The notes under the pieces: model-generated
Databases searched by the model: none
Told to the model about the DNA's origin: nothing
What the model saw: the letters and a program-made list of their open reading frames with translations, nothing else
Program-made: the position numbers and the translations under genes
Source: Kiritimatiellales bacterium
Lineage (GTDB): Bacteria > Verrucomicrobiota > Kiritimatiellia > Kiritimatiellales > Pontiellaceae
Direction: 5' to 3'
Assembly (NCBI GenBank): GCA_015486775.1
Contig: WFRA01000009.1
Span: forward strand, 1 to 17,098
Length of the DNA stretch: 17,098 nt
Shown here: positions 1-17,098 of the stretch, piece by piece
Layout of the letters: every line of letters begins with the position of its first letter
How positions within the stretch are numbered: position 1 is the stretch's first letter

Positions 1-39
1 AACAAAATGCTCGCGGAGGTTTCCGATTATGCAGAATAA
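1..39 (+). CDS. atpA: V-type ATP synthase subunit A, C-terminal tail (partial)
   Basis: Frame 1 is open from the window edge and reads [12 protein letters not shown] before a TAA at 37-39. It overlaps the start of subunit B by 11 bases, which is the arrangement expected for translationally coupled ATPase genes. Identity as catalytic subunit A is inferred only from its place directly before subunit B; twelve residues are too few to show homology. The Shine-Dalgarno sequence of subunit B lies inside these codons. Confidence 0.5.
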
Positions 40-1327
40 AGTATACCACCGGATTGAACAGATTACCGGCAACGTGATTGTGGTGAAGGCCGAGGGCGTG
101 ATCAATGGCGAGCTGGCGCAGGTGGATGCCGCGCACGGCATGTCGCTGGCTCAGGTGATCCGCCTCGAAAATGAAAACGTGTTCCTCCAGGTTTTCGCGG
201 GCGGACGCGGAGTGAGTACCGATGCGAAGGTTCGCTTTTTGGGGCGCACCATGCAGGTGCCTTTCTCCGAAAACCTGCTCGGCCGCGTATTTACCGGTTC
301 GGGCGCACCGCGCGACAAGGGGCCGGCCATCACTGAAAACATGATCGAGATCGGCGGCCCGTCCGTCAACCCCGCCAAACGCATCATCCCGCGCAACATG
401 GTGCGAACCGGCATCCCGATGATCGATGTCTTCAACACGCTGGTGGAATCGCAAAAGCTCCCGATCTTTTCGGTGGCGGGCGAGCCCTACAACGAGCTGT
501 TGGCGCAGATCGCCCTCCAGGCCGAAGTAGACATCATTATCCTCGGCGGCATGGGTCTGAAGCACGACGACTATCTCTACTTCCGCGACAAGCTCGACGA
601 ATCCGGCGCCCTCTCGCGCTCGGTCATGTTTGTCCACACCGCCTCCGACCCCACCGTGGAGTGCCTGCTCGTGCCCGACATCTCGCTGGCCGTCGCCGAA
701 AAATATGCGCTCGAAAACAAGCGCGTGCTCGTGCTCCTCACCGACATGACCAACTTTGCCGACTCCATGAAAGAGGTGGCCATCACCATGGAGCAGATCC
801 CCTCCAACCGGGGCTATCCCGGCGACCTCTACTCGCAGCTCGCCTCCCGCTACGAAAAGGCGGTCGACTTCGAGGGCAGCGGTTCCATCACCATCCTGGC
901 CGTCACCACCATGCCGGGCGACGACGTAACCCACCCGGTTCCGGACAACACCGGCTACATCACCGAGGGTCAGTTCTACCTCAAGAACGGCCGGATCGAG
1001 CCGTTTGGTTCGCTCAGCCGCCTCAAGCAGCAGGTGAACGATCGCACGCGCGACGACCACCGCGCCATCATGGACACCATGATCCAGCTCTACGCCTCCT
1101 ACAAAGAGACCCTCGAAAAGCAGTCGATGGGTTTCCGCATGAGCGACTGGGACAACAAGCTGCTTAAATATGGCGAACGCTTCGAAACCGAAATGATGGA
1201 GATCACCCTCAACATTTCACTCGAAGATGCCCTCGATGCCGGCTGGCGGCTCCTGGCCGACTGCTTCGAGCCCGCCGAAACCGGAATCGCCTCCAAGCTC
1301 ACCGATCAATTCTGGCCGAAGGACTAG
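29..1327 (+). CDS. atpB: V-type ATP synthase subunit B
   Basis: Non-catalytic nucleotide-binding subunit of the V1 sector; three copies alternate with three A subunits in the cytoplasmic head. The 432-residue length fits the bacterial V/A-type B family. Visible marks are an N-terminal beta-barrel segment (about 1-75), a degenerate P-loop region SVAGEPYNE at about 148-156 in place of a true GxxxxGKT, the [18 protein letters not shown] strand at about 233-250, and the [18 protein letters not shown] block at about 259-276. The C-terminal helical domain ends near TDQFWPKD. The ATG has a CGGAGG Shine-Dalgarno sequence at 14-19, inside the end of subunit A. The missing Walker lysine is normal for B subunits and is what separates them from A. 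Confidence 0.96.
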
Positions 1328-1330
1328 TAA

Positions 1331-1350
1331 GGGCAGGTTGCAACCTGCCC
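1331..1350. repeat. Perfect 20-bp palindrome between atpB and atpD
   Basis: Starting three bases after the atpB stop, GGGCAGGT-TGCA-ACCTGCCC reads the same on both strands. In RNA it gives an 8-bp GC-rich stem with a UGCA tetraloop. No U-run follows, so it is not an intrinsic terminator. A second short palindrome, ACCCATGGGT, follows at 1353-1362. Possible roles are mRNA stabilisation or processing between the 3-copy and 1-copy subunit genes, or one copy of a dispersed palindromic repeat; the window alone cannot decide. Confidence 0.8.
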
Positions 1351-1370
1351 ATACCCATGGGTGCTGAAAC

Positions 1371-1958
1371 ATGGCAAAGATCAAGCTAACCAAAAACGAG
1401 CTCAAGACGCAGCGCGATTCGCTGGCGCGGTTCAACCGCTATCTGCCGACGCTGCAACTCAAGAAGCAGCAGCTGCAGATGGAGATGCGGCGGCTGGACC
1501 AGGAGATCGAGGAAAAGCGCGACGAAGAGCAGGAGGCCCGCGCCAAGCTGAGCGCCTGGATTCAGCTCTACTCCGAGCCGATCGACCTGGCGCCCTTCGC
1601 CGAGCTGGAATCGTTCCAGACCTCGCACGGCAACATTGCCGGCGTGAACATTCCCATCCTTGAAAACCTGATTTTCAAAGAAGCCCTTCCCGACCTCTTC
1701 GAAACCGACCCCTGGACGGACGAGGGCATCCGCGTGCTCAAGCAACTAACCCGCCTGCGCGTGGAGCGCCAGATTCTTGAAGAGCAGCACCGCCTACTCG
1801 CCGAAGAGCTGCGCACCACCACCCAGCGCGTCAACCTCTTCGAAAAAGTCAAGATTCCCGAAGCCAAGGAAAACATCCGCGTCATCCGCATCTTCATGGG
1901 CGACCAGCAGACCGCCGCCGTCGCCCGCTCCAAAATCGCCAAAGGAAAATCAGCTTAG
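1371..1958 (+). CDS. atpD: V-type ATP synthase subunit D
   Basis: Central rotor stalk subunit of V1, one copy per complex, turning inside the A3B3 head. The 195-residue product is rich in charged helix-forming residues. Two long coiled-coil helices are visible, at about residues 5-65 (LTKNELKTQRDSLARFNRYL onward) and about 125-185 (LKQLTRLRVERQILEEQHRL onward), with a shorter middle region; this is the hairpin architecture of the family. The ATG is 43 bases after the atpB stop. Only a weak GGTG at 1360-1363 could act as a Shine-Dalgarno sequence, in contrast to atpB and atpK. Its place in the operon and its length support the call. Confidence 0.93.
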   Translation: MAKIKLTKNELKTQRDSLARFNRYLPTLQLKKQQLQMEMRRLDQEIEEKRDEEQEARAKLSAWIQLYSEPIDLAPFAELESFQTSHGNIAGVNIPILENLIFKEALPDLFETDPWTDEGIRVLKQLTRLRVERQILEEQHRLLAEELRTTTQRVNLFEKVKIPEAKENIRVIRIFMGDQQTAAVARSKIAKGKSA

Positions 1959-1968
1959 GATAAAAGGA

Positions 1969-2046
1969 AACCGCGAATGAACGCCAATAGACGCAAATGG
2001 ATTTGGAAAAGCAGAGCATTCGTGCCGATTCGAGAAATTCGTGGTT
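1969..2046. repeat. Word-repeat element between atpD and atpI
   Basis: This 78-bp stretch begins with AACCGCGAAT (1969-1978) and ends with ATTCGTGGTT (2037-2046), a 10-bp inverted pair with one mismatch. Inside, the left part repeats variants of CGCGAATGAACGC, CCAATAGACGC and CAAATGG, and the right part carries inverted variants (ATTCGTGCCGATTCGAGAAATTCG). Intergenic elements of this GAACGCGAAT style recur in many bacterial genomes, as far as I recall. It lies directly before the atpI start and accounts for the spurious upstream extension of that reading frame. Confidence 0.6.
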
Positions 2047-2053
2047 AAATATT

Positions 2054-3856
2054 ATGATCGTTAAGATGAAAAAACTGACGCTCCTGTGTACGCGGGCGCA
2101 ACAGGAGCAGACGCTGGACAAGCTGCGGGATCTGCAGGTGGTTCATGTCGAGCATGTCCAAGCCCCCGACGGTGCCGATCTGGAAAAAGCCCGCAACCAC
2201 CTGCTCTACGTCCAGCGCGCGCAGGAAGTTCTGGCGGCTCATCCCGATACCGAACCCACTGGCACCGGCCCCGACGAGCTGGCCGACAAAGTATGGGCAC
2301 TAATCCATCGGGAAAAAGAGCTCAAAGAATCCATCCAAGCCTTGGAACACGAGCACGCCCGCATCGCCCCCTTTGGCGAATTTGACCCGCGCGCCATCCA
2401 AAAACTCAACGAAGAAGGGCTCTTCGTCAAGCTCTACGAACTCCCGGCCAAAAACACCCCCGAAGCCCCCGATGGCGTGGCCATAACCGAAATTAGCAGG
2501 GGGAAATACGACACCTATGTCCTGGCGGTTTCCAAAAACGATTTCACCCTCCCGGCGCACGAAGTCCGCCTGCCCGACCGCTCGCTCTCGCGCATCGAGC
2601 ACCATCTCGAAAAAAACAAAAAGGCGCTCGAAGAGACCGAAGCCCAGTTCCAGAAATATGCGGGCGACAAAAAGATTGCCGACGAGATTGTGGCCAAAGC
2701 CGAGGATGCCGTCCGATACTTGGAAGTCCGGCAAGGCATGGGCACCGACAGCGCCGTCACCTACCTCCAAGGCTTCTACCCCATCGACCGCGAGGCCGAC
2801 CTCGTCGCCGCCGCAGAAGAAAATGGATGGGGCTACCAGTTCGAAGAAACCTCCGACGACGACATGCCCCCCACCCTGCTCCGCAACCCCAAGTGGGTCA
2901 ACCCCATCAAGCCGGTCTTCCAAATGATTGGTGTGCTCCCCGGATACCGCGAACTCGATGTGAGTGCCGTATTTCTCATTTTCCTCAGTATCTTTTATGC
3001 GTTTCTGATCGGGGATGCGGGATACGGATTCATGTTTGTGGCGATTAGCCTCTTCTTCAAAGCCAAATACAAGGGCAATGAAAAAGCACAATACATCATG
3101 AACCTGCTGATTTTGATGAGCAGTTGCACGATCGTCTGGGGCATGCTGACCGGAGTCTACTTTGGAATTTCTTTCGACGCACTGCCAGCCCCCCTGCGCT
3201 CGCTCTCTTCGGGCTGGCTGATCGGCCACGGGGATCCGGAAGTTGCCAAAACCAATGTTATGCATGTCTGCTTCACCCTCGGGGCGGTTCATCTGAGCAT
3301 CGCCCACCTCTGGAACTTCATAAAAAAAATCAACACCTGGGAAGCATTGGCCAACATTGGGTGGCTCATCTGTACGTGGATGCTCTATTTTGTTGTCCTG
3401 CAGATGGTGCTGGACATCCAACCCCCTTTCTCCGCGAACTTTCTCTGGGGCGGCGTGGGCATCGGTGCCGGGCTGGTTTTTATCGCCCTACTCCTGCAAA
3501 AAGAAATTCTCGGAGTAATCACCCTAGCCTTGGACATCATTTCCAACTTTGTGGATATCATTTCATACGTCCGCCTCTATGCCGTCGGTGCCGCATCTTT
3601 CGCCATCGCCAACGCATTCAATGAAATGGCCGTGAATGCCCTCGGAGAAAAAGGGATACTGATTGGCGGACTCATTGCGACCCTCTGCATTTTTGGTGGA
3701 CACGCCCTGAATATCGCCCTTGGAGCCATGGGCATTCTCGTCCATGGAATCCGGCTCAACACCCTGGAATTTTCCAGCCATGCGGGCGTGCAGTGGGCCG
3801 GCGAAAAATTCAACCCATTCAGTAGAAAAGAAACTTCAACTCAGCAAGGAGGATAA
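2054..3856 (+). CDS. atpI: V-type ATP synthase subunit I
   Basis: Membrane stator subunit (a/I family), about 600 residues from ATG 2054. The N-terminal half is cytoplasmic and charged with coiled coils (a helix-rich stretch near KNKKALEETEAQFQKYAGDK). The C-terminal half has about seven hydrophobic segments, starting near LDVSAVFLIFLSIFYAFLIG. The segment IISYVRLYAVGAASFAIANAF carries the family's essential arginine (Arg507 in this numbering, codon 3572-3574), which faces the rotor-ring glutamate in ion transfer. The frame stays open upstream to ATG 1997, but those 19 codons come from the word-repeat element, and family members start at the MKKLTLL-type sequence, so 2054 (or 2066) is preferred. 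No clear Shine-Dalgarno sequence precedes either ATG. The TAA overlaps the Shine-Dalgarno region of atpK. Confidence 0.95.
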   Translation: MIVKMKKLTLLCTRAQQEQTLDKLRDLQVVHVEHVQAPDGADLEKARNHLLYVQRAQEVLAAHPDTEPTGTGPDELADKVWALIHREKELKESIQALEHEHARIAPFGEFDPRAIQKLNEEGLFVKLYELPAKNTPEAPDGVAITEISRGKYDTYVLAVSKNDFTLPAHEVRLPDRSLSRIEHHLEKNKKALEETEAQFQKYAGDKKIADEIVAKAEDAVRYLEVRQGMGTDSAVTYLQGFYPIDREADLVAAAEENGWGYQFEETSDDDMPPTLLRNPKWVNPIKPVFQMIGVLPGYRELDVSAVFLIFLSIFYAFLIGDAGYGFMFVAISLFFKAKYKGNEKAQYIMNLLILMSSCTIVWGMLTGVYFGISFDALPAPLRSLSSGWLIGHGDPEVAKTNVMHVCFTLGAVHLSIAHLWNFIKKINTWEALANIGWLICTWMLYFVVLQMVLDIQPPFSANFLWGGVGIGAGLVFIALLLQKEILGVITLALDIISNFVDIISYVRLYAVGAASFAIANAFNEMAVNALGEKGILIGGLIATLCIFGGHALNIALGAMGILVHGIRLNTLEFSSHAGVQWAGEKFNPFSRKETSTQQGG

Positions 3857-4365: not shown

Positions 4366-4399
4366 AAAACGCCACGGATTACCCGTGGCGTTTTTTTTT
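4366..4399 (+). terminator. Intrinsic terminator of the V-ATPase operon
   Basis: AAAACGCCACGG (4366-4377) pairs perfectly with CCGTGGCGTTTT (4383-4394) around a 5-base loop, followed by a run of nine T at 4391-4399. It lies 49 bases after the atpK stop. The A-tract on the left side gives a short T-tract on the other strand, so it may also stop the convergent fab transcript. Confidence 0.93.
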
Positions 4400-4445: not shown

Positions 4446-5692
4446 TACTTCGGCTTGGTGAAGCAGAGCGTGGCATTGTGCCCGCCAAAGCCGAGCGAGT
4501 TGCTCAGGGCGGCGTTGATTTCCATCTCCCGCGCTTGGTTGGGCACATAGTCCAGATCGCAGTCGGGATCGGGGGTGGTGTAGTTGATCGTGGGCGGCGC
4601 GATGCTGTCGCGGATCGCCAGCGCGCAGATGGCGGCTTCGACCCCGCCGGCCGCGCCGAGCATGTGGCCGGTCATGGATTTGGTGGAGCTGACGGCGACC
4701 TTGTAGGCAAGCTCTTCGCCAAGCGCGCGCTTGATGGCGAGCGTTTCGCCTTTGTCGTTGTAGTAGGTGGAGGTGCCGTGCGCGTTGATGTAGTCGATGT
4801 CTTCGGGTTTGAGCCCGGCATCGGCGATTGCGAGTGACATGCCGCGCCCGGCTTCGACGGCGGTCTCGGAGGGGGCGGTGATGTGGTAGGCATCGCAGGT
4901 GCGGCCATAGCCGGATGCTTCGCAATAGATTTTTGCCCCGCGCTTGAGGGCGTGCTGTTTTTCTTCAAGAATAACGATGCCTGCGCCCTCGGACATGACG
5001 AAGCCGTCGCGCTCCTTGTCGAACGGGCGGGATGCGCCTTCGGGGTCGTCGTTGCGGCGGCTGGTGGCACGCAGGGCGGAGAAGCCGCCGATGCCGAGCA
5101 TGGCAACGGAGGCTTCGGCACCGCCGGCCACCATGATGTCGGCATCGCCATACTGAATCATGCGCATGGCTTCGCCGATGGAATGCGTGCCGGATGCACA
5201 GGCGCTGGTGACACAGAAATTGGGCCCCTTGAAGCCATATTTTATGGCCACATATCCGGAAAGGATGTTGGTGATCATCTGGGGAATGAGCTGCGGGGAG
5301 ATGCGGCGGGGGCCGCCTTTGATTGCGCGGGCGGACTGCTCCTGCATGTACTGCATGCCGCCGATGCCGGAACTGGCAATCACACCGACGCGCTGATGGT
5401 CGATCGCGTCGAGGTCAAGGCCGGAGTCCTCGACGGCCATGGTGGCGGCGGCCATGCCCCAGATGGCAAAGGGATCCATCTTGCGGGCTTCCTTCTTGTC
5501 GAGGAACTTTTCCACGTCGAGATCGCGGATCTCGCCGCCGATCTGGACGGCATACTGGTCGATATCCGGCACGTTTTCCACGCGGGCAATGCCGGATTTC
5601 CCACTCTTGATGCCTTCCCAAAACCGATCGAGCTCGCTTGCGACAGGCGAAACAACCCCCAAGCCGGTAACCACTATTTCACGACGATCCAT
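4445..5692 (-). CDS. fabF: Beta-ketoacyl-ACP synthase II
   Basis: Cytoplasmic elongation enzyme of type II fatty-acid synthesis; it condenses malonyl-ACP with acyl-ACP. With the start at ATG 5692 the protein has 415 residues, as usual for FabF. The thiolase-fold catalytic set is visible: nucleophile Cys165 (TSACASG), His305 (NAHGTSTYYND), Lys338 (STKSMTG) and His343 (TGHMLGAAGG). The frame extends seven codons upstream to a TTG, but GAGGAG at 5699-5704 sits six bases before the ATG, so 5692 is the start. It is the last gene of the fab cluster, 84 bases after acpP, and its ribosome site is complementary to an upstream hairpin loop. Confidence 0.97.
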   Translation of the reverse strand: MDRREIVVTGLGVVSPVASELDRFWEGIKSGKSGIARVENVPDIDQYAVQIGGEIRDLDVEKFLDKKEARKMDPFAIWGMAAATMAVEDSGLDLDAIDHQRVGVIASSGIGGMQYMQEQSARAIKGGPRRISPQLIPQMITNILSGYVAIKYGFKGPNFCVTSACASGTHSIGEAMRMIQYGDADIMVAGGAEASVAMLGIGGFSALRATSRRNDDPEGASRPFDKERDGFVMSEGAGIVILEEKQHALKRGAKIYCEASGYGRTCDAYHITAPSETAVEAGRGMSLAIADAGLKPEDIDYINAHGTSTYYNDKGETLAIKRALGEELAYKVAVSSTKSMTGHMLGAAGGVEAAICALAIRDSIAPPTINYTTPDPDCDLDYVPNQAREMEINAALSNSLGFGGHNATLCFTKPK

Positions 5693-5757
5693 GACCCGCT
5701 CCTCTTTTTTCAAAAAAACCGAAATGGCCGGAACGCCTGAGGAGCGGTTCCGGCCAT
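5693..5757 (-). promoter_or_regulatory. acpP-fabF leader: hairpin, U-run and fabF Shine-Dalgarno complement
   Basis: On the minus-strand transcript an 11-bp perfect stem (plus-strand 5724-5734 and 5747-5757, ATGGCCGGAAC and its complement) closes a 12-base loop. The stem is followed, after UUCGG, by seven U, which has the form of an intrinsic terminator. The loop holds CGCUCCUC (5739-5746), the exact complement of GAGGAGCG at 5697-5704, which contains the fabF Shine-Dalgarno sequence. The loop could therefore pair with the ribosome site as an H-type pseudoknot. Sequence facts are direct; a role in lowering fabF relative to acpP is inferred. Confidence 0.6.
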
Positions 5758-5776
5758 CAACTCGCTTCGAGCCAGT

Positions 5777-6016
5777 CTACTCGCCGAAACCTTTTTCTTT
5801 CAGGTAGCTGATGACTGCCCCGACGGAAGTCATTTTCTCGGCGTCTTCGTCCGGGATTTCAGCACCGAACTCTTCTTCGAAGGCCATGACCAACTCCACG
5901 GTGTCGAGGGAGTCCGCGCCGAGATCTTCGATGAAGGACGCGCCTTCGGTTACCTGGTCGGCGTTGACGCCGAGCTGCTCAACAATGATATCTTTTACTT
6001 TATCTTCAAGTGCCAT
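5777..6016 (-). CDS. acpP: Acyl carrier protein
   Basis: Small acidic carrier of growing acyl chains, 79 residues. The phosphopantetheine serine is Ser36 in the [11 protein letters not shown] motif, and helix II that follows ([13 protein letters not shown]) is the partner-recognition helix. A strong AAGGAGA lies at 6023-6029, six bases before the ATG. The 40-base gap to fabG contains TATAAG on the minus strand (plus 6045-6050), a possible internal -10 element, but I find no matching -35. Extra transcription and a terminator-like hairpin behind the gene would both suit a protein needed in large excess. Confidence 0.98.
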
Positions 6017-11657: not shown

Positions 11658-11732
11658 GCGCCCATAGTTCAATGGATAGAATAGTGGCCTCCGAAGCCAT
11701 AGATACAGGTTCGACTCCTGTTGGGCGCACCA
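11658..11732 (+). tRNA. tRNA-Arg (anticodon CCG)
   Basis: A full cloverleaf folds: acceptor GCGCCCA/TGGGCGC, D arm GTTC/GAAT, anticodon arm GTGGC/GCCAT with loop CTCCGAA, 4-base variable loop, T arm ACAGG/CCTGT with TTCGACT, and an encoded ACCA end. The anticodon CCG is at 11691-11693 and reads CGG. Length is 75 bases including CCA. It has its own promoter and terminator, and the decayed stretch downstream begins right after it. Confidence 0.96.
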
Positions 11733-15090: not shown

Positions 15091-16188
15091 CTAATCCAGT
15101 GCATGGAACTCCATTCCATGGGCGTTGGCCACCGGCGCGCAGGTCACGTGACCGTTCAGCGTATTGACGCCAGAGCGCAGCTCGGGAATCTGTTCGAGCG
15201 CCCCCTCCAGCCCGAGGTTGGCGAGCTTGACGGCATAGGGTAGCGTCGAGTTGGTGAGCGCCTGCGTCGAGGTGCGCGCATAGGCCCCCGGCATGTTTGC
15301 CACGCAGTAGTGCAGAACATCCTCTTCCCAGTAAACCGGATCGTCGTGCGTCGTCGCGTGCGAGGTTTCGGCGCAACCGCCCTGGTCGATGGCGATGTCG
15401 ACAAAGACGGAGCCGGGCTTCATCTGCTTCAGGAAGCTGCGCTTGATCAGCTTGGGCGCCTTGGCGCCGGGGATCAGGACGGCGCCGATCAGCAGGTCCA
15501 CGCTCGACAGCCGTTCCAGCAGGGCGGCCTCGGTGGAGTAGATCGTGCGGATGGCGCCATGGGTGGAGGTGTCGATAAAGTGCATCTTTTCGATGTCCAC
15601 CTCCAGCAGGGTAACATTTGCGCCGATGCCGGCGGCCACGCGTGCGGCGTTGAGCCCGGCCGTGCCACCGCCGATCACCAGCACATCGCCGATCGGCACG
15701 CCGGGAATCCCGCCCAGCAGGATGCCCGAGCCACCGTAGGGCTTGGCCAGATAGTAGCTACCCATCAGGGTGCCCATGCGCCCGGCAATCTCGCTCATGG
15801 GTTCAAGCAGCGGCAGGCGGTTGCCCACCTGCACGGTCTCGTAGGCCACGCCGGCCACGCTGGCGGAGCAGAGCGCCCGGGTCAGCGGCTCGTTCGCCGC
15901 GAGGTGGAGGTAGGTGAAAAGGATGAGCCCGCTTCGGAAATATCCATATTCCGATGCGATCGGCTCCTTGACCTTGACGACCATCTCGGCGGCCCAGGCC
16001 TCGGCGGCGGAGGCCACCATCGTTGCGCCCGCCGAAACGTATTGATCGTCCGGGAACCCGCTTCCCTCCCCGGCTCTGGTCTCGACCAGCACCTCGTGCC
16101 CGGCGGAAACCAGCTGCTGCACACCGGATGGCGTGCAGGAGACCCTGTTTTCCTTCACCTTGATCTCTTTTGGAATCCCAATCTTCAT
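15091..16188 (-). CDS. ald: Alanine dehydrogenase
   Basis: NAD-dependent enzyme that interconverts alanine and pyruvate plus ammonia. The product has 365 residues (usual about 370). [17 protein letters not shown] with Arg15, Lys74 (VKVKEP) and His95 (TYLHLAA) form the substrate site, the Rossmann motif is [20 protein letters not shown] (about 173-192), and the catalytic aspartate is Asp268 in [14 protein letters not shown]. The frame is open far upstream, but the family start is MKIG at 16188, with AGGAAG before it. The ATG overlaps the upstream aminotransferase stop as ATGA (16185-16188), so the two genes are very likely coupled. Confidence 0.97.
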
Positions 16189-17098
16189 TTCCCGGCTTCC
16201 TGCTTCAGTTCCTTGATGCTTTCGAGCACAGCCTTGGCCATATATTTCACCTCGGCCATGGTCAGCGGATAGAGCGGCAGGTGGGTGTAGCAGCGATTGA
16301 ATGTTTCCTCGGTCTTTGGGCAGGTCTTGGCGATCTTCTTTGCATCGTAGCCATATTGCTCGAAGATGTTGAATTTGTAGAGCGGGCCGAAGTGGGTCAC
16401 TTCGGTAACGCCCTTTTCCTTCAGCTTTTTCTTCAAGGCCTGGCTGTCGGCACCGACACGCTTCGGATCGATGCGCAGCAGGAAGAGGTGGTGGCTGCCG
16501 TAGGTCTTTGCCGTGTCCGCCGGCGGAAGCAGGATGGCCTTCTCCTTGGCGAAAGCCTCGCGCAGATAGTCGGCGTGCTTTTTGCGCTTGGCGAGGATCT
16601 TGTCGAGACGTTTGACCTGGAGCCGGTAGCCGAGCGCCGCGATCTCCGTGGACGAATAGTTGCAAGGCACCTGCGGCTTGCCGAAGCGGTCAATCAGCGG
16701 CGAAATGTCATAGAGCCAGTTCTCGATGGTCCGGGTGAAATCCAACCCCAGGAAACGGCCAAGGGAAAACTGCTCCCCGAGGGGATCGTTCGAGACCAGC
16801 AGGCCGCCTTCGCCGAAGGAGTTGATGTTCTTCACCTCGTGCATGGAATAGCCGCCGAAGTGGCCGATGGTTCCAAGCGGCTTGCCCTTGTACATTGCGC
16901 CGAGTCCATGCGCGGCATCTTCGATCACATAGAGGTCGTGCTGCTTCGCCAGCTTCATGATCTTGGTCATGTCGCACGGGTAGCCGCCAATGTGGACCGG
17001 CATGATGACCCGGGTGCGCTTGGTGATCTTCCGAGCCACATCGGCGGGATCCATGTTGACCGTCCGGGGATCGATGTCGGCAAACACCAGCTTGGCAC
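16185..17098 (-). CDS. DegT/DnrJ/EryC1-family PLP aminotransferase (5' end outside window)
   Basis: Fold-type I PLP enzyme of the sugar aminotransferase family, usually acting on a keto-sugar nucleotide. The visible part has AKLVFADIDPRTVNMDP at the window edge (the frame stays open past it, so a start at GTG 17087 is unlikely), the PLP aspartate in VIEDAAHGLGAMYKGKPLG, and the Schiff-base lysine in MHEVKNINSFGEGG (codon 16830-16832). The C-terminal domain ends in HLPLYPLTMAEVKYM. Roughly 300 of about 380-400 residues are present. The substrate cannot be told, and the partner genes of a sugar pathway would lie upstream of the window. Confidence 0.92.
   Translation of the reverse strand, partial: AKLVFADIDPRTVNMDPADVARKITKRTRVIMPVHIGGYPCDMTKIMKLAKQHDLYVIEDAAHGLGAMYKGKPLGTIGHFGGYSMHEVKNINSFGEGGLLVSNDPLGEQFSLGRFLGLDFTRTIENWLYDISPLIDRFGKPQVPCNYSSTEIAALGYRLQVKRLDKILAKRKKHADYLREAFAKEKAILLPPADTAKTYGSHHLFLLRIDPKRVGADSQALKKKLKEKGVTEVTHFGPLYKFNIFEQYGYDAKKIAKTCPKTEETFNRCYTHLPLYPLTMAEVKYMAKAVLESIKELKQEAGK

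Follow-up and report, generated by a model that had tools for sequence, protein, structure and literature searches.

A conserved hairpin between acpP and fabF in Pontiella and related bacteria, a candidate leaky internal terminator

Results

The acpP-fabF locus

The stretch of DNA analysed here, 17,098 nt of contig WFRA01000009.1 from a Kiritimatiellales bacterium and called the window throughout, carries acpP followed by fabF on the minus strand (Table 1). Between the acpP stop codon (UAG, 5779-5777) and the fabF start codon (AUG, 5692-5690) lies a gap of 84 nt, whose position inside a putative operon would fit an internal terminator. The genome is a relative of Pontiella (Kiritimatiellota): its fabF is 81-86% identical to the closest named records, which belong to Pontiella desulfatans, Pontiellaceae and Kiritimatiellales, and the gap of the P. 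desulfatans record is the same as that of one genome in our genus sample (L009/L028). Elsewhere the window holds V/A-type ATP synthase genes on the plus strand (29-3856; alpha/beta family, subunit D and 116-kDa-subunit family), a plus-strand tRNA-Arg (CCG) at 11658-11732, and a minus-strand open reading frame of 524 aa (15091-16665) resembling alanine dehydrogenase/transhydrogenase, the real start of which is probably further inside, its Pfam match beginning at residue 163. Between the convergent fabF and V-type ATPase genes stands a strong hairpin whose tail is U-rich whichever way it is read, probably a bidirectional terminator-like element.

Table 1. Features of the acpP-fabF region of the window.
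Feature	Position	Strand	Description
acpP, acyl carrier protein, 79 aa	5777..6016	-	Pfam PF00550, E 1.6e-14
fabF, 3-oxoacyl-ACP synthase II, 415 aa	4445..5692	-	Pfam PF00109/PF02801; start set at ATG 5692
Intercistronic hairpin	5724..5757	-	11-bp outer stem; inner 3-bp helix 5745-5743/5737-5735; apical loop CCUCA
U7 run	5712..5718	-	five bases beyond stem
CGCUCCUC, loop stretch complementary to SD	5739..5746	-	sequence
GAGGAGCG, fabF Shine-Dalgarno (SD) region	5697..5704	-	sequence
Terminator-like hairpin 3' of fabF	4366..4394	.	within-genome yardstick for U-rich tail

In the transcript of the gap, a 5' arm AUGGCCGGAAC (5757-5747) and a 3' arm GUUCCGGCCAU (5734-5724) form 11 of 11 Watson-Crick pairs around the 12-nt loop CGCUCCUCAGGC (5746-5735). 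The spacer UUCGG (5723-5719) and then seven U residues follow, and the SD region GAGGAGCG is an exact 8-nt complement of CGCUCCUC in the loop. A preliminary description of this DNA had given the same 11-bp stem, 12-nt loop, U7 and 8-nt complement, all of which we find again; the U run, though, is not directly behind the stem, five bases separating the two, and U makes up 4 of the first 8 bases after the last G-C pair (tail AUUUCGGUUUUUUU). Nor is the loop open in the predicted fold, where GCU and GGC pair within the 12 nt and leave CCUCA unpaired, with a hairpin energy of -23.2 kcal/mol compared with -19.0 kcal/mol when the inner helix is omitted. Over a 110-nt stretch from the acpP stop codon into fabF, the fold z score was -2.3, and 5 of 200 shuffles were equally good. 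Rfam covariance models gave no match in 5600-5850 up to E 1, and a tRNA elsewhere was their only match in the whole window.

Conservation within the genus

The genus sample comprised 28 genomes, many of them fragmentary (up to 650 contigs), 26 of which had a fabF match at the cut-off (G023 had none); these 26 together with G013 provide 27 acpP-fabF gaps. L028-L031, whose gap sequences are the same as those of L009, L016, L015 and L017, were dropped. The hairpin is present in 26 of the 27. The sole gap without it, L025 (G006:C9), is a 59-nt AT-rich gap in a 1.2-Mb genome that contains T8 yet no hairpin; we excluded it from the alignment and from the loop-SD tests, and L023, L024, L026 and L135 from alignment A2. 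The outer stem GGCCGG...CCGGCC is near-invariant across the 23 core gaps, and 90.4% of the cells are paired over 15 pairs. Because the stem barely varies, covariation within the genus could not be demonstrated, 62 of 500 and 89 of 500 shuffles being equally good. The distance between the arms does vary, and in most genus members the inner loop region forms an additional helix (for example GCUC/GGGU, GCCC/GGGC or ACUC/GAGU).

A strict version of the hairpin pattern occurs in 14 of the 28 genus genomes, each time at the acpP-fabF gap. We rejected a repetitive element as an explanation, there being only two sites elsewhere (in G001 and G019). A covariance model built from the 23 genus rows has its top match at the gap in 23 of the 28 genomes (E <=5.1e-7), because the model was built from those same rows. 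Its best match outside the gap is G019:C205 (E 5.5e-5), with the stem GGCCGGAAC..GUUCCGGCC and the tail UUUUUUG. Neither this site (L179, 357-389) nor another off-gap match, G040:C100:6072-6109 (L178), is at acpP, and both carry U5-U6 tails; the two stems are near-identical to that of the acpP-fabF hairpin and read like ordinary terminators, which makes it less likely that this gap has stem letters of its own.

The hairpin beyond the genus

In the sister family we sampled 14 genomes, three of which had no fabF match, and read 11 gaps. All 11 contain CCGGGAAC...GUUCCCGGC (with a G-U pair in L129) followed at most one base from the stem by U6-U9, and the element at this gap is a predicted terminator of textbook form. 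The genus covariance model gave no significant match at the sister-family gaps (E 3.8 in G032; 0.04, second in its genome, in G028); homology across the two families is therefore a matter of position and shared stem core only.

By a fixed criterion, a hairpin occurs in 38 of 39 acpP-fabF gaps in the order as against none of 39 fabG-acpP gaps, a control gap that is shorter (median 38 versus 85 nt). For the class, we took 40 loci from 39 further families, all among those listed, whose genomes had been drawn from a larger group; f4, f21, f29, f30, f37 and f41 are outside the sample. Here fabF adjoins acpP in 36 loci (35 families) and was not found beside it in L144, L152, L161 and L176. The same criterion finds a GC hairpin in 34 of the 36 class acpP-fabF gaps (all but L153 and L165) compared with 8 of 40 fabG-acpP gaps. 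Fold scores draw a softer contrast than the criterion does, with z < -3 in 16 of 32 scored acpP-fabF gaps and 2 of 23 fabG-acpP gaps.

We also compared 30 selected stem arms, from 6 order representatives and from those 24 of the 34 class hairpins that have a CCGG-like or hand-set anchor; L014, whose arms are the same as the window's, was dropped, and L140, L141, L146, L148, L149, L151, L155, L160, L163 and L171 are outside the set. In these arms 95.9% of cells pair, a count that leans toward pairing since the arms were taken from the fold, and 54 cells are changed on both sides. No shuffle among 500 equalled either figure, nor did any equal the covariation score; one of 500 matched the number of doubly changed pairs. 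This pattern bears on a reading of the inverted repeat as a DNA operator bound by a repressor instead of an RNA structure. The stem letters are indeed palindromic and well conserved, but the spacing between the arms is variable, the inner part forms an extra helix, the arms change together across families while their letters differ, and the repeat lies between a stop codon and an SD within a gene cluster; we regard an operator as very improbable.

At greater distance, 65 loci had an acpP match; of their acpP-fabF gaps 45 were scored and 29 reached z < -3, versus 1 of 38 fabG-acpP gaps. The gap of E. coli K-12 (NC_000913.3) holds a terminator-like hairpin with UUUUAUCUUUUU following within a few bases (z -4.3). 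Compared across genomes, then, the hairpin is real: genus and order retain it, and it is frequent across the class.

Pairing between the loop and the fabF SD

The 8-nt complement had led to the proposal of an H-type pseudoknot, in which the loop would bind the fabF SD and so prevent translation of fabF from RNA that reads through. Energetically and geometrically the window may accommodate this structure, the loop-SD duplex being worth -14.0 kcal/mol for 8 bp and -8.2 kcal/mol for 6 bp. Pairing CUCCUC with GAGGAG only does leave two bases to cross the second stem, as the preliminary description held: we read 2 nt across the 6-bp stem and 19 nt across the hairpin, lengths that are compatible by a common rule of thumb. 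In the prediction most of the window's SD is paired as well (mean unpaired 0.22; range 0.15 to 0.69 in 27 gaps), but its predicted partners are other than the loop, in a folding method that excludes pseudoknots, and formation of the pseudoknot would cost the inner helix.

Loops and SDs of different genomes were compared in 27 gaps, which include L135 from a neighbouring genus and leave out L025. The longest Watson-Crick match averages 4.11 nt within a genome and 3.82 nt between mismatched genomes, a difference with p 0.049 when the window is included; once it is removed the means are 3.96 and 3.75 and p is 0.11. Allowing G-U pairs gives p 0.26 (all) and 0.40 (without the window), duplex energy gives 0.12 and 0.23, and the loop-SD test in the sister family gives 0.80. 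Matches of 6 nt are found in L013 and L017 and of 5 bases in several other gaps, but the pairing register changes from genome to genome; in the window's own register 57.6% of cells in the pseudoknot columns pair, 266 of 500 shuffles do as well, and 451 of 500 do so for covariation. Covariation had been named as the check for the stem and for the loop/SD pair alike, and it is the selected class-wide stem arms that have it and the loop/SD columns that do not.

The match had further been called rare by chance. It is uncommon, shuffling of the loop letters reaching 8 nt against the window SD 102 times in 20,000, but not extreme: the 27 matched pairs include one 8-nt match and the 702 mismatched pairs six, and matches of at least 6 nt are found in 3 of 27 and 29 of 702. 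One 8-nt case somewhere is unremarkable because 27 gaps were compared. The SDs of four other genomes would also pair over 8 bases with the window loop, and it is therefore the loop that is the unusual partner. The inner helix accounts for the CUC-like stretch that the loops have, and its 5' side explains the loop letters better than pairing with the SD does.

We rejected the pseudoknot as an account of the element, with no covariation, a long match private to the window and matched pairs not clearly above mismatched ones; that it blocks fabF translation in read-through RNA is highly unlikely, relatives keeping the hairpin and losing the long loop complement. To judge from the letters of its relatives, the 8-nt match looks like a coincidence of one genome, although a weak trend, or an effect private to the window, is conceivable. 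Complementarity between a loop and the SD is what likens the element to the pseudoknots by which translational riboswitches hide an SD; it differs from them in that no conserved pairing, ligand domain or Rfam family was seen here. Three other pairings that would hide the SD, in which the SD pairs with sequence past the acpP stop or with the spacer, or the first fabF codons pair with the loop, were no better in matched than in mismatched combinations (p 0.26 to 0.74), and an extended outer helix pairing upstream sequence with the 3' spacer gave p 0.10, 0.12 and 0.57 in three sets.

The tail behind the stem

U7 had been offered as evidence for termination, but of the 26 hairpin-bearing genus gaps only that of the window has it, and Pontiella tails are U-poor, with the consensus AUUU. 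In the first 20 bases past the stem the longest U run is U7 in the window, U5 in L003 and U4 in L004 and L012, and at most U3 in the other 19 of the 23 core gaps; three other genus members with small genomes have U5. For 21 core loci we used the hairpin behind fabF as a yardstick. Of the 8 bases that follow the hairpin, 3-5 are U in the acpP-fabF gap, and the median is 6 behind fabF. When the most U-rich hairpin is picked at both sites, the acpP-fabF count is lower in 19 of 21 loci and equal in 2; when the lowest-energy hairpin is picked, it is lower in 11, equal in 4 and higher in 6. Whether the acpP-fabF tail is the weaker of the two thus depends on the comparison hairpin chosen.

Such tails lend weight to the main rival of a leaky terminator, a processing or stabilising role, in which the Pontiella hairpin would no longer terminate and an endonuclease would cut beside it, the hairpin then shielding the acpP 3' end from exonucleases and leaving more acpP RNA than fabF RNA. 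The 19 core gaps lacking a U run longer than 3 are consistent with this, as are the near-invariant stem letters across the genus and the 6-8 U among the next 8 bases behind fabF in 18 of 21 loci (with the most U-rich hairpin chosen). A precedent exists in the cip-cel operon, where, in the part of the source available, stem-loops direct cleavage and stability (PMC10311766). What the two cases share is an intergenic stem-loop that governs, or here would govern, the ratio of the flanking RNAs; as that part of the source describes it, the cip-cel operon acts by cleavage and stability, whereas the acpP-fabF hairpin is known from sequence (PMC10311766). Against a processing role, the U-rich tail is kept in the sister family and in many other families, suggesting termination as the ancestral function, and near-identical stems elsewhere are ordinary terminators by their appearance. 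We consider this reading possible and clearly the less probable one.

Discussion

ACP is required in excess. Its molecules have to be more numerous than the enzymes that draw on it, although acpP commonly clusters with the genes of those enzymes, and a hairpin at the junction, frequent through the class and also present in E. coli and other phyla, would be a simple and testable account of the ACP ratio. We think it fairly likely that the acpP-fabF hairpin is a leaky internal terminator that also shields the acpP RNA at its 3' end once released, with ACP exceeding FabF. Some polymerases would halt at the hairpin and yield a transcript ending after acpP, the remainder would continue into fabF, and the hairpin would protect the 3' end of the freed acpP RNA, the outcome being ACP output above that of FabF. 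We infer termination, read-through and the ACP:FabF ratio at this gap from the conserved position, the class-wide stem covariation, the canonical tail of the sister family and the U-poor tail of Pontiella. Since the Pontiella tail is short (AUUU), termination should be partial; it is also conceivable that so weak a tail causes no termination. Partial termination leaving acpP in excess had already been suggested for the window, and the conserved hairpin and the canonical terminator of the sister family show that suggestion to point in the right direction, although the U7 on which it leaned is private to the window. Between them, Pontiella and the sister family provide a natural comparison of a weak tail with a strong one.

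By analogy, the element is of a known kind, a ratio-setting internal terminator as in ABC-importer operons, of which the acpP-fabF case would be a new example. Internal terminators after the binding-protein genes of ABC importers combine long GC stems with tails low in U and determine the transcript ratio, according to the part of PMC9045158 available. With those of Ruminiclostridium cellulolyticum, as that part presents them, the acpP-fabF hairpin shares a stem-loop behind a gene needed in excess within an operon, a long GC stem and a tail less U-rich than the canonical one; the genes and the phylum differ, and termination was measured there whereas here the element is read from its letters (PMC9045158). 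The E. coli hairpin stands between the same two genes in the same position and is strong, with a U-rich tail; its stem sequence differs, and the two are compared by position. In E. coli, acpP and fabF are co-transcribed, as stated in the available part of PMC9825163. Among the matches listed in our full-text literature search, none described the acpP-fabF element by title and abstract, and the accessible portions of PMC6131387, PMC1779546, PMC9239193, PMC5337935, PMC9825163 and PMC2837039 contain no account of it; older E. coli work may describe the E. coli terminator.

An excess of ACP could also arise from internal promoters, acpP and fabF being among the E. coli genes with known ones in the available part of PMC1779546. 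Against this, though as a weak test, a simple scan found nothing promoter-like on the minus strand of the window in fabG, acpP or the acpP-fabF gap. Directly upstream of fabG there is a promoter-like site, TTGACA-16-TAACAT (10/12; 6868-6841, minus strand); the window contains 7 sites of that grade, with 5.4 expected by chance.

A bolder extension, which we hold to be unlikely, is that bacterial type II fatty acid synthesis uses the acpP-fabF hairpin as a general stoichiometry device in many phyla, often with a CCGG-type stem core in Kiritimatiellae; in Pontiella the tail would have been lost and the stem letters are near-fixed, so a nuclease or an RNA-binding protein, rather than RNA polymerase, may read the stem. 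The locus also illustrates that a striking 8-base match can prove to be chance after relatives are compared.

Similarity of the hairpin between phyla may be convergence. Cloacimonadota gaps (L036, L041-L044 and L049) have a recurring stem of their own, GGUGGAG..CUCCACC, and Bacillota gaps (L045, L057, L059, L067 and L091) another, GUCCC..GGGAC, each often with few U after it.
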